Assembly (NCBI GenBank): GCA_963971535.1
Contig: OZ020591.1
Span: forward strand, 18,708,877-18,772,876
From: Notolepis coatsorum
Taxonomy: Eukaryota; Chordata; Actinopteri; Aulopiformes; Paralepididae
Direction: 5' to 3'
Length of the DNA stretch: 64,000 bases
In this document: positions 1,142 to 64,000 of the stretch, piece by piece
How positions within the stretch are numbered: position 1 is the stretch's first letter
Layout: each line of letters begins with the position of its first letter
Made by a program: the position numbers and the translations under genes
Notes under the pieces: generated by a model
Database searches by the model: none
What the model saw: the letters and a program-made list of their open reading frames with translations, nothing else
What the model was told of the DNA's origin: nothing

Positions 1142-2807
1142 TTTAATTACCGCATATATATATATTTATAGGGCAACCAACCTTTTTACACTGCCATACA
1201 CTGAGGCATCAGGGCATGTATAAACCCCTTCCTCTCCCAAACCGTTTCTACAATTGTTTTATGTTGCATGATGATCATGAATTCATTTATTATTATCTTC
1301 TTTATATTTGAATATCAACATTATCTGTCCATCCTCAGTAATCCTCAATTTACTATAATATACTCCTGACTTCATCGTCTTTCCAAATGCGCACACACAG
1401 AGAAAGGGAGAGTGCCCCCCTCCCCCCATTTCCCTTTCCCCAGTCCACACTGTCTGCTGTTCTCTGGCTCTGCCTCTGATCAGGATTAGCTTAAATTAGA
1501 TGAAATGCAGTAAAGCTTAAGTTATATGGACATTTTGGTAAATGGCTTCTTTTTATATCGATATTTTTTAATTACGTTGAATATGCCTATATATAGTATC
1601 GCTATGATGAGATATGTATGCAGTAAGTTGTGACATTGAGGCGATATATATACAGTAATTGTACAAATAAATATATGCATACAACGTAATCGATAACAAT
1701 ATCCCTATATAATATCTGTTGCATTTCATGAATGATAAACAACAATATGTGGTGTGTGTACAGTGTGTGAAATTATGCACTTGGAATAGTGTGTCTCGGA
1801 CGAGAAAATATGATTTGCGCTCCCCGCAGAAAACCCTTCATAACTCCGCTTCCAGGAAATCCGCTTCGATTTCGGCTTGTGTTTACCTTTTTTAGCGTGG
1901 AATTGTGAACGAACGACGGCATGTATAAACAAACGGCTTTTGGCGTATTGTACAGCAACTCGTCTTTTGTCAAATGAGCCCAACCATTTCCACATAGCTA
2001 AACTATAGAATATAGAAAGCGATCTCCGGAAATCATGAAATATCACTAATTCGCGATTTCTTTATTAGTTTGTCATGACAAACCAATTACATAATCCAAC
2101 ATATGTGTAAAGAAACAACATATTCCAGTTAACGGTATATTTTTTTAATGATTCGTTACGGTGAAATCAATACTTCCATTTGTATAAATTACATTAACTC
2201 GAGGATGGTATTCCTCCCTGCGGGACCAATATTATTCTATGACAGCCCCGTCCCCCATTCGCTAACCAACCAATCACTGCTACGCAACATCAACGCAAGG
2301 TTGTTCAGATTAGATTTTGGGGAGAGGTACGCAACATCCTCACAACACACTCTACAACACCCTCTGCAACATGTTGCGTTGAAGTCGTGCTGATGTTGTG
2401 TTGCAGTTGCGTTGCAGTTGCTGTATCATGTAGAGGCCTTTAGTGTCTAGCAGAAAGAATTGAATGTCCACACGATGACAATATAGCTGAAGGTTCTTTA
2501 CTTCCACACTTTGAGTTGTATACATCCAACTGGCGGGCACCGTATCTGACGTCATTAACACTTTCCCCGCCAATCACGTTGTACGACGTGTTTCAAGTTC
2601 ATGCGAATTCTGCCAATCCACGGCGTACGACGTTATTGAGATCATATTTCATATTTTCGCCATGGTATTCATATTTCCCTCACGGAGCCTGGTCTGATGC
2701 TGTGTGAGCCGGCACAACTCTGCAACTCTCCGGCCACTCGCATATCGTCGCGGGACTCTAGCCACATACCGTGGATATGGAACGCTGGATAACTCAATAA
2801 TCGACAT
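1142..2807. other. AT-rich duplicated non-coding block
   Basis: No convincing gene is seen. The short frames at 1568-2046 (minus) and 2148-2393 (plus) recur in copy 2 at 45905-46377 and 46530-46775. Their conservation is just that of the duplicated DNA, and they match no family I recognise. Near 2280-2415 there is a cluster of short repeated CAACA/GCAAC motifs. Copy 2 has an extra 1 kb (42319-43309) where this copy reads straight through at about 1495-1515. Confidence 0.6.
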
Positions 2808-2815
2808 GATTTGGG

Positions 2816-4312
2816 CAGGGTTCGAAATTAACGGGGGCTTGGGGCATAATGCCCTTGAAAATGGATAAAATGCCCTCGAAAATCAGTTAAGGGGGGCACT
2901 TAATGCCCCCGACAGTTTACTAATTATATATATATATTTATCCGGTAATGGAGCGTCTGTGTATCGTATACGGTTCAGATGACGCGCAAATAAAAAAAAT
3001 CATTTGGCGGAGCCGGTGTTCTGCACTGGCTGCAGCAGCAGCAGCAGCCAGGTGCTAGTCAGTTTGTGTAAAAATGGCACGCACAATATAAATCAATCTT
3101 CATTACGACTTTAAAAACATAGCCATTAACATTACATAGGCCTACACACATCTTGCCATAGCGTTAGCAGTTTGTACAATGTTTGTAGCTGTTAGCTAGC
3201 TAGCCCTTCACAACAACAGCTAACACCGTAGCTACTAGCTACTGTAGCAGAGGAGGAAATGGGAGTCTGAGAGGCGGGGTGTTTAAAGACAATGATAGGC
3301 GTTTATTCAACATCCAAGAAGGCTAACATACAACTGTGTTTTACTAACTCCAACCGGGACTATTGCCGCTTTCGCGCTGCTTGTTGACGTTATGAACTGC
3401 TCCTAACGTGACCGGAGCTGAAGGTGGCGGTGCCACACGCTAAAATGTCCGTGGGGACCCGGCGCCAACCCATAGATAGTTCCAACTCACCGAATTACGT
3501 AATCCACCACAGTTGCACTCAATATTTAAATAATGTTAGTCTAAATATATGTAGACAGAAACATAATAATTTCAAGCAGAAAACGAATCTTTCCATTAAG
3601 AACTGACAAGCAGGGAATTTAAACATGGTTGACATTGTTTTTGTGTGTTTATATTAAATAAAGAAAGGAAAGTCTAGTGCTGGCTGAGCATATTGTTTGT
3701 TTGCACTAAATTAATACTTTGACAAATGTACCCTATATTTTTCAGTCAGTTCGGTCTTTGTGTGCCAAACATTATTTAAGGCTGTAAACACTGTAAACCT
3801 TTTATTTTATTTTTAATAAATGAGAAACATGTTTAGATTTGAGTGTTATAGAAAAAGAAAGCAATACGCTTGGACCAGCACTCACAGATTTTGGTATATT
3901 TAATGGCAGCCTGAAACAAACATGTTTCGGAACGATTATGTTCCGAAACATGTTTGTTTCAGGCTGCCATTAAATATACCAAAATCTGTGAGTGCTGGTC
4001 CAAGCGTATTGCTTTCTTTTTCTATTATACTCGACGGGATTTCAGCACCCAGTGTTATAATTTGTGAGCGCAGTCTATCTTGACTTTTAGATTTGAGTGT
4101 TAATTTTTTTTTAATAAAAATTAACGTATATCGAACTGAAAACCGTGACCCCAAATTCGTGATATGAACCAAACCGTCCATTTTGTGAACCGTCCCACCC
4201 CTACCGTTTATCATAAAAATTCAGTGCCCCCGAAATACAAAAAAAAGCCCCCGAAAATCAATTAAGGGGGGCAAAAAAAGCCCTTGAAAAAAAATGTTAA
4301 TTTCTAACCCTG
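2816..4312. mobile_element. Non-autonomous hAT transposon, 1497 bp
   Basis: The termini are CAGGGTTCGAAATTAAC and, inverted, GTTAATTTCTAACCCTG. The 8-bp target duplication GATTTGGG flanks it at 2808-2815 and 4313-4320. The empty site is in copy 2 at about 47172-47180, where GATTTGGG occurs once. No transposase frame is present. Inside are a GCA repeat near 3035, AT-rich unique sequence and the perfect 86-bp inverted repeat at 3848-4025. Termini, duplication length and empty site together make the hAT call secure; the subfamily is not determined. Confidence 0.93.
3848..4025. repeat. Perfect 86-bp inverted repeat with 6-nt loop
   Basis: The left arm 3848-3933 and right arm 3940-4025 are exact reverse complements, separated by GATTAT. 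The arm and the sequence following the right arm (4026-4083) resemble a repeat also present at about 27640-27787. The hairpin is therefore one repeat copy plus a head-to-head partial second copy. It lies wholly inside the hAT at 2816-4312. Perfect arm identity points to a very recent event or ongoing arm homogenisation. Confidence 0.95.
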
Positions 4313-4575
4313 GATTTGGGCGTGTATTAGTATTATACATACTGGAAATGGATCGACTCGATCCCCATCAAATAACTGGGATCTTTTTGCTCCAGTCTCA
4401 TCGCCCAACGGTAAGAGGAGGCTGACGTAACTTTCAGCCTGTTTGTTTATTATTATCCATACAAACTGCTCTGATCTATATATCACCCATACTACATAAA
4501 GCATTTAACGATGATCACGGAATTATAAATGACCCCCCCCCCCCCTCCGTTCACCCGCGCATGATCAGTCATAAC

Positions 4576-5640
4576 TAGAGTTGTTCCGATACCAGTATCG
4601 GAAAAGCCGCCGATACTGGCTAAAATGCTGGTATCGGTATCGGCGAGTACCCTCTAATGCTGCGCTCCGATACCATATGACGTAATTTATCAACAACACT
4701 GTGGTCTGTTGAGTAAGCATTATAAAACAAACGGGTGCTTAATCGATTAAAGTGTCAATGCCATTTGTCATTTTAACAGCAGATACTTTCTTAAATGTCA
4801 TCGTCCCGACAGAGCGGTGTTGACGGGGAGCTCATGGGTTCGCTTGGTGGCTGGTGTTATTAGCATTGAACAGCTAACCGAAAGCTAGCTTTAACATTAC
4901 CTTGGCTAAAGTTGGGGCTATTCATATAATCCAGCAATAATGGCTGCAGACCTGCAAGCAAAGTACAGCAAGTTGGCAAAGGAGTATTCGTTAAATCACA
5001 ATGTCACCAGTAACGTTACAGTCTTTTCATATACCGGCAGCTCATGCTATGCTAACTTAGCTCACGTTGAAGTCGTCATTGAGACCACCTCGCGTACACA
5101 ATTAATGACATGTTGCGGACAGCCATATCGGTGACAATGTTTAGCTTTTAGTGCCAAATGATAAGAGTCTGAGGCGGAGTCTCAAAAGAGAATGTTGAAT
5201 ATTTATTGTGCAAAAATCACAACAGATCCGACTGCTACTGAAACGGAGCCTTGTAGACAGACTGAGTAGGGTATATCTGCAGAGCCAGTGGGTAGCGAGT
5301 GCAGCAACGTATAATGTCCGTGTGGATCATTGGAGTAGGGTATATCTGCAGTGCTGAAGCCCCATACTCATTGATTAATGATACTAATACAAATCTATAC
5401 AATCACCTGTTGTTGAATAAATACCATTACTTTCTAGTTATTACTAAAAAACAGTATATATAAAACAGTATTTGTTAAAAAAATATATATATATATATTT
5501 ATAAAAGATTTATATAATATCGTTTTTTTTTTTTTTTTTTTTGTGCACTGGTATCGGATAAGTATCGGTATCGGCCGATACCCAAAGCTTAGGTATCGGA
5601 ATCGGATCGGAAAGGAAAAAATGGTATCGGAACATCTCTA
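4576..5640. mobile_element. Non-autonomous hAT transposon, 1065 bp
   Basis: The termini are TAGAGTTGTTCCGATACC and, inverted, GGTATCGGAACATCTCTA. The target duplication GTCATAAC is at 4568-4575 and 5641-5648. Copy 2 keeps the empty site with a single GTCATAAC at about 47404-47411. No transposase is encoded; the short frame at 4940-5134 shows no family motif. A poly(T) run lies at 5524-5542, and subterminal repeats of GTATCGG occur at both ends. Confidence 0.93.
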
Positions 5641-5649
5641 GTCATAACG

Positions 5650-63288: not shown

Positions 63289-63615
63289 GGGTAGAGCAAT
63301 AGTTCTAAATTTTTTTACACCAAGTACCACCTGAGAACGTAGCTGCCTCTCCAAGTACCACCATATGACCGGCGTTAAAATACAGTCTATTCAGCTATGC
63401 ACAGTTCACGCAGGAGGCAAATGTATTCCTAATACCATTATTTATTGTTAACTTTTGTCAGACACAGCCACAATGTACAAAGGGTTTTGCACTAGAACTA
63501 GCAAACGCTTCCACACAACTCATACAATGCAAGGGGCATTGAGAACATAATAACTAACATTCTCACATAGCAAGTGAGAAAATTAAGAACTGTATTTCAG
63601 CAAATGTACTTAATT

Positions 63616-63772
63616 ATCTCTCTCTCTCTCTCTCTCTCTCTCTCTCTCTCTCTCACACAGCAAGCAATTGTCCTTCATTCTCTCTCTCTCACACACACAC
63701 ACACACACACCTACACACACACACACACACACACACACACACACACACACACACACACACACACACACACAA
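63616..63772. repeat. (CT)n and (CA)n microsatellites
   Basis: A CT run of about 36 bp at 63617-63653, a second short CT run at 63679, then CA repeats at 63690-63772 with one CTA interruption. The corresponding CA run in copy 1 is longer and nearly pure (20840-20972). Confidence 0.95.
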
Positions 63773-63827
63773 TTATTTTGTTACAAAAACTTAATTTCCT
63801 GCATTCTGGTGCAGGAATTTTTGAGAT

Positions 63828-63972
63828 TTTACCCTTTAAATGCCAGTGTTTGTGATGGGCATCACAAATTATTGTAAAAAAGAAAAGAAAACACATATTC
63901 AATACATTTTTGAATTGTTACCCTTTAAATGCCAGTGTTTGTGTGACGGCATCACAAATTATTGTTAAAAAA
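63828..63972. repeat. Short tandem duplication inside the hAT
   Basis: ACCCTTTAAATGCCAGTGTT followed by GGCATCACAAATTATTGT occurs at about 63830-63875 and again at 63919-63965. Copy 1 has it once (about 21031-21076), so the second copy is specific to copy 2. Confidence 0.85.
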
Positions 63973-64000
63973 AACACACAAAAAGTTTAATATTTTCAAT

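Follow-up and report, generated by a model that had tools for sequence, protein, structure and literature searches.

In mammals, KRAB-ZNF genes form tandem clusters that evolve quickly beside transposable elements (TEs). The FiNZ-ZNF clusters of cyprinid fish are presented, in the part of PMC10547256 consulted, as a large, recently expanded and clustered C2H2 family in TE-rich surroundings. The consulted part of PMC2604467 deals with expansions of poly-zinc-finger genes, in which the number of fingers and the DNA-contact residues vary between paralogues; fingers are reported there to be gained and lost, with some conversion among paralogues, and the arrays of such families to change faster than their surroundings. 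The window analysed here, a whole stretch of 64 kb from Notolepis coatsorum (C23:18708877-18772876; genome of 3.42 Gb), holds two related blocks, copy 1 (c1) and copy 2 (c2), whose common core is a C2H2 zinc-finger exon recognized by a Pfam scan. Very probably, the two blocks lie side by side as units of a large C2H2 zinc-finger cluster that was amplified in tandem recently and whose units exchange pieces by ectopic recombination. This type of locus is already known, and the c1/c2 cluster is a well-documented new member of it; literature searches made without the species name did not find this locus.

With the mammalian KRAB-ZNF genes the locus shares the tandem arrangement beside TEs; it may differ with respect to KRAB, for which no Pfam match was found in the two zinc-finger exons scanned, where zinc-finger and minor models were listed. 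The first exon of the gene was not among the exons scanned, and two probes did not find it. Size, recent expansion, clustering and TE-rich surroundings liken the locus to the FiNZ-ZNF clusters; in contrast to the family in the consulted part of PMC10547256, the one described here is known from genome sequence alone. Differences in finger number and contact residues recall the poly-zinc-finger expansions. Compared with what the consulted part of PMC2604467 covers, the difference here is one located candidate tract of ~3.7 kb, spanning the array, the 3' untranslated region (3'UTR) and a short interspersed element (SINE).

An earlier sequence-only reading of the window had proposed two copies of ~21 kb, starting at 1142 and 41965, with the same order and orientation. 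The common order and orientation were borne out by a self-alignment, in which 1142-21111 and 41966-64000 are collinear in the same orientation and homology reaches the last base of the window. The number, the length and the starts of the copies have to be revised. The 184 kb of C23 that were read are free of N and contain six units in tandem, U0 to U5, all on the plus strand, with c1 as U2, c2 as U3 and the outermost two cut; their spacing is unequal, at ~24-51 kb. The N-terminal exon starts at 18651939 in U0 (beyond the stretch read), 18690232 in U1, 18718188 in c1, 18762940 in c2, 18786499 in U4 and ~18837800 in U5. Dozens of further units are on C29. The block 14004-15545 gave 56 match rows against the genome; four strong ones cluster on C23, and C29 has many places. 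For the N-terminal zinc-finger exon of c2, the best 40 of 1535 first-look candidates were scored; all 40, c1 and c2 included, are 97-100% identical, and they are distributed as 5 on C23, 33 on C29, 1 on C27 and 1 on C49.

Adjacent paralogues of one orientation carrying finger arrays, the mark of a tandem C2H2 zinc-finger cluster, are present from U1 to U5, where the arrays were read; they were also read in seven of the eight C29 loci, and the U0 array is beyond the stretch read. Open multi-finger reading frames run through the array in c2 and in U1 (694 aa) and the frame of c1 is broken; those of the other units vary, several being cut by locus ends. A unit exceeds 21 kb because 24456-25223 still recurs in order, together with 21017-22380, in U1, c2 and U4. 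The former piece is also found in U0. Recurring sequence thereby reaches 25.2 kb in the window or farther; matches to the right of 25223 are dispersed repeats. Both apparent left boundaries are TE insertions. At 1142 lies the 5' terminus of an inserted L2 that is common to c1 and U5 (99.3% identical over 856 bp), for which c2 has the empty site, and an insertion of ~2.6 kb gives copy 2 its apparent left boundary, homology to U5 resuming beyond it at 39000-39306. Units of this kind would arise through repeated tandem and inter-chromosomal duplication.

The relationship between c1 and c2 was measured along the segments A, B, D, E, F, ZN, UTR, SINE, G, H, I1, I2, J and K, in distance comparisons that took in the six C23 units and eight C29 places (C29a-g among the names used). 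Outside the finger array, the 3'UTR and the SINE, substitutions between c1 and c2 amount to 112/7979, or 1.40%; a first pass over slightly different blocks gave 110/7849, with transitions not in excess (51 vs 59). These differences are evenly spread, with a Poisson-like dispersion of 0.84 in 300-bp windows. Such evenness would suit a single tandem duplication of 21 kb (or 41 kb) that made both copies, with the common TEs older and the others younger, as would the seven of eight listed insertions that were found in one unit only among those tested. That scenario is nevertheless very improbable, given the six units on C23, the dozens on C29, a hAT at 15546 common to C29 units, and the closeness of c1 to units other than c2.

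Which unit is closest to c1 depends on the segment. It is U5 in A (4/351), B (9/1296) and E (2/730), where c2 shows 5, 18 and 7 differences, and c2 in F (5/356) and J (11/643). In ZN (1/508), UTR (0/140), SINE (2/374) and G (1/572) it is U1, which is again nearest in I1 (5/779) and K (2/461), with 14 and 8 differences for c2, and weakly so in H (15/1044; 17 for c2). In I2, C29g is nearest (5/738; 7 for c2). Of the units read, c2 comes closest to c1 in two of the 13 segments represented in more than two units (D, present in c1 and c2 alone, is omitted), and c1 is the nearest of c2 in five, two of them ties. A pair made by one segmental duplication would be mutual nearest relatives throughout; these counts, and a c1+c2 clade rejected at p 0.007 in the approximately unbiased (AU) test of ZN+UTR+G (5 units), show that c1 and c2 do not have the relationship of sisters born of a single event.

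The same test gave c1+U1 a support of 99/97 in ZN+UTR+G. In F (9 units), c1+U1 was rejected at p 0.044 and c1+c2 was supported at 88/97. The near-identity of c1 and U1 over about 9172-12900 is bounded by more divergent segments, F on the left (10/348) and H on the right (Fisher p 1.5e-5 and 6e-4), and is best read, from these alignments, as conversion between units. The tract, with its zinc-finger array, 3'UTR and SINE, would share one descent with U1 that the adjoining segments do not share, and the units would be continuing an ectopic exchange of pieces, most likely by gene conversion. The existence of several units, their mosaic identity and the distribution of insertions over the units read are direct observations; we infer conversion over another recombination route, and likewise its direction.

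A rather unlikely competitor is that unequal crossing-over with later deletions, or the random sorting of old variation, produced the mosaic without gene conversion. Unequal crossing-over also makes hybrids, and the unit family is old enough for common TE polymorphisms such as the hAT at 15546 and a 980-bp segment. The right edge of the tract is placed by distance, since the trees of H alone and of I alone do not decide (AU p 0.117-0.432). Against this, more divergent segments lie on either side of the c1-U1 tract within 3.7 kb, a pattern that a single crossover would not produce. For the cluster with exchanging units, the undecided H and I trees are one of several unfavourable points. I1, to the right of the tract, is again close to U1, and outside the array c1 and c2 diverge as evenly as they would after one event. 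The test of the c1+U1 grouping was made with the distances already in view; nearer relatives may exist beyond the eight C29 places and the 184 kb of C23 read, and the order and number of the units are taken from the assembly alone.

A divergence of 1.4% lies within the allelic range of variable fishes and would thus fit two unmerged haplotypes set in tandem by the assembler. When the finger/SINE tract is included, the dispersion rises to 2.76, which is ordinary for recombining alleles. Dispersion was dropped as a discriminator between alleles and paralogues, as the counts fit either and the unit map superseded it. Under a simple neutral two-haplotype model with the peak trimmed, the even background is not unusual at recombination of up to 0.1x pi (<=0.1x), but is unusual at 0.3-3x pi (p 0.01-0.05). 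False duplications on one scaffold do occur in published assemblies according to the consulted part of PMC9516828, which gives read depth as the proper criterion. Haplotypes are very improbable here, considering that there are more than two units, unequally spaced and without N in 184 kb, and that no pair checked with c1 is near-identical throughout: c1-U1 (10/348) and c1-U5 (9/356) differ in F, and c1-c2 in the SINE (19/318). The preference of the sequence-only reading for paralogous duplication thus appears sound.

The finger arrays change much faster than their surroundings. Between c1 and c2, the N-terminal part and fingers 1-4 differ at 14/965 sites (~1.4%), and the central fingers have no one-to-one pairing. 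Among the twelve arrays read, c1/U1 and C29d/C29g (cut) are near-identical pairs, C29c/C29f and C29a/C29d are partly common, and the others differ in finger order and contact residues. In the c1 and U1 arrays, finger 1 has lost the same 9 bp and the fingers follow mostly the same order; relative to U1, c1 has an additional finger and lacks two stretches, of 49 bp and of 2 bp, and its frame is broken in finger 6. For the c2 finger tract 55038-56473 no donor was found, the other matches above 100 bp being only 79-89% identical in the best 40 scored of 4785 candidates; the adjoining N-terminal exon is 97-99% identical elsewhere in the genome.

The SINE near 11250, which had been listed as common to both copies, is present in each, but it departs from the 1.4% background: over the 3'UTR and SINE, c1 and c2 are 30/480 apart (6.25%; Fisher p 2e-10). 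Together with the mismatch of the fingers, this excess pointed to a third paralogue. The SINE of c2 is the odd one, with 19-24 differences from every other unit aligned. SINE-to-SINE conversion within c1 is not supported as the source of the 6% divergence: of the 20 differing sites, the second SINE of c1 has the c1 base at 11, the c2 base at 7 and another state at 2.

Eight insertions had been described as present in one copy, with the exact empty site in the other. Most of these empty sites are real, with junctions read, except that the L2 and the second SINE each replace 5 bp. Among the units tested, specificity to one unit stands for seven of the eight, and fails for the hAT at 15546, found in about 12 units. 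This hAT, with its ends, was read in six C29 units at the position it has in c1; the 8-bp duplication is unchanged in five of them and altered by one base in C29e. It is absent from U1, c2, U4 and C29c. Matches to its site are split in 12 units, c1 being one: both halves, with the 8-bp overlap, are listed for eight and a single half for four. Another 19 matches, c2 among them, run through. The part of a long interspersed element (LINE) nested in it occurs in c1 alone among the units read. A different interruption was noted near this site at G000:C29:98650829-98654298 (split at 115-117 of the query, ~3.2 kb).

For the hAT at 15546, which is common to C29 units, presence in one copy and an empty site in the other did not signify insertion after a duplication. 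The relative clock that had been derived from one duplication therefore fails, as c1 and c2 are moreover, among the units read, not nearest relatives over most of their length, and comparing the two alone gives no clean TE clock because the units seem to have exchanged pieces. New TE insertions would land in single units, and older ones, namely the hAT at 15546, the L2 left of 1142 and probably the 980-bp segment, would be spread over subsets of units. The 980-bp segment is probably an older polymorphism among units; an insertion in c2 is less likely, since six C29 places are split at the same point, by 1.0-4.8 kb of unread sequence. It and the L2 left of 1142 reflect a sorting among older units like that of the hAT at 15546. 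Rex1, said to be common to both copies, lacks its 3' part in c2, which is without 1.5 kb at 48634/48635; this is best read as a deletion in c2, because U5 has the segment.

The four hATs, at 2816, 4576, 15546 and 43335, have perfect 8-bp target duplications and terminal inverted repeats (TIRs), as is characteristic of hATs. The site of the hAT at 2816 is empty in c2, U5 and one C29 place (37 other rows of the site search were left out as dispersed-repeat copies). By an independent measure this element probably moved very recently: all 40 scored full-length genome matches, c1 itself included, are at 99-100% on many contigs. The surroundings of its site (47093-47311) are a dispersed repeat with many copies at 96-97%. 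Just two other units were testable for the hAT at 4576 and for the miniature inverted-repeat transposable element (MITE). The former site is empty in c2, where the adjoining sequence is shortened, and in U5, and the latter in c1 and U5 (38 other rows, being copies of a dispersed element, were not counted). The stretch right of ~5961 (5961-6110) is a dispersed young element, to which 38 of 40 scored matches are confined, at 98-100% and on many contigs. The site of the hAT at 43335 is empty in c1, U5 and two C29 places matching through, and also in nine more right-hand matches on C29 that cover it.

The L2 of c2 encodes a reverse transcriptase (RVT_1, E 3.5e-39) and an endonuclease (Exo_endo_phos, E 4.7e-4, under its curated cut-off), as expected for its presumed family, a name kept from the sequence-only reading. 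Its insertion lost 5 bp of target, TCGCC or TTGCC in other units. All 40 scored matches of the corresponding c1 site run through, c1 among them and c2 not; four of these matches, on other contigs, end at 223-230 of 261. At its 5' end, 355-bp tandem repeats (52800-53697, 98% alike) are perhaps promoter monomers. For the TIR element of c2, the empty site GGACCTGG is identical in U0, U1, c1, U4, U5 and C29a, b, d and g, and here too all 40 scored matches of the c1 site run through, with c1 among them and c2 not. The idea that c1 carries an excision scar was discarded, since GGACCTGG is the state of nine units. The second SINE of c1, flanked by a 38-bp repeat array, has no counterpart in any of the eight other units read there; c1 has two SINEs, U1, c2, U4 and C29a, d and g have one, and none was found in U5 and C29b.

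The locus illustrates how misleading a comparison of just two copies from a gene cluster can be: of eight "new" insertions, one proved common to other units once these were read. It is also a tractable case, in which one set of units can be scored for conversion tracts, turnover of finger arrays and TE insertions confined to single units, making the order of TE activity and zinc-finger change testable. Tentatively, and with somewhat less than even confidence, the cluster may represent a very large and recent zinc-finger expansion of a non-cyprinid fish, in which conversion homogenises the N-terminal exon and flanks while the arrays are swapped and rebuilt. This would give new DNA-binding specificities beside still-mobile hAT and L2 elements, in an arms race that involves neither the FiNZ nor the KRAB family; any TE-control function would be part of this conjecture.

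Table 1. Coordinates of the units, exons, insertions and proposed tract in the window.
Feature	Position	Strand	Unit	Remarks
Unit U2	1142..25223	+	c1	Self-alignment; right-hand parts recur in order in other units
Unit U3	41966..64000	+	c2	Cut by window end; continues rightward on C23
C2H2 zinc-finger exon	8827..11077	+	c1	13 finger units; 480-aa reading frame
C2H2 zinc-finger exon	53694..55985	+	c2	Open frame of 706 aa, 15 fingers
Proposed conversion tract	about 9172..12900	+	c1	c1-U1 4/1594 in ZN+UTR+SINE+G
L2 fragment	348..1145	-	left of c1	Common to U5; target duplication TTTAATTAC visible in U5
Stretch of ~2.6 kb	39307..41947 (edges approximate)	-	left of c2	Absent from U5; open reading frame 39626-40441, presumably L1-like
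hAT	2816..4312		c1 only	8-bp duplication GATTTGGG
hAT	4576..5640		c1 only among c1, c2, U5	8-bp duplication GTCATAAC
Rex1 3' part	6572..8091	-	c1, U5	Missing in c2
Second SINE	11716..12121	-	c1 only	Cut at one end; replaces 5 bp, without visible duplication
hAT with nested LINE sequence	15546..17836		c1	8-bp duplication CATCAGAC
980-bp segment	42319..43300		c2	Absent in c1, U5, two C29 places
hAT	43335..45903		c2 only	8-bp duplication GTTATATG; holds nested hAT
Nested hAT in hAT 43335	44028..45402		c2	Own flanking duplication CTAATATA
MITE	47623..48040		c2 only among c1, c2, U5	TTAA-flanked
L2	49366..53693	-	c2 only	No duplication seen
TIR element	57218..58875		c2 only	Imperfect 5-bp duplication CCAGG/CCTGG

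Rfam and tRNA scans gave no match. At 13779-14003, c1 is without ~510 bp that are kept at similar length in U0, U1, c2, U4 and C29a, b, d and g, their place being taken by a repeat fragment of 225 bp. A 54-bp minisatellite at 37067-38072, in the spacer that separates c1 from c2, comprises 18.8 copies that are 96% alike. A Mutator-type transposase, with Pfam PF20700 in three open reading frames, extends over 30182-34480 and is interrupted by an element of ~2 kb. The latter has inverted arms of ~790 bp that are 99% alike (31515-32307 and 32792-33582) and 196-bp tandem repeats, and resembles a foldback insertion.

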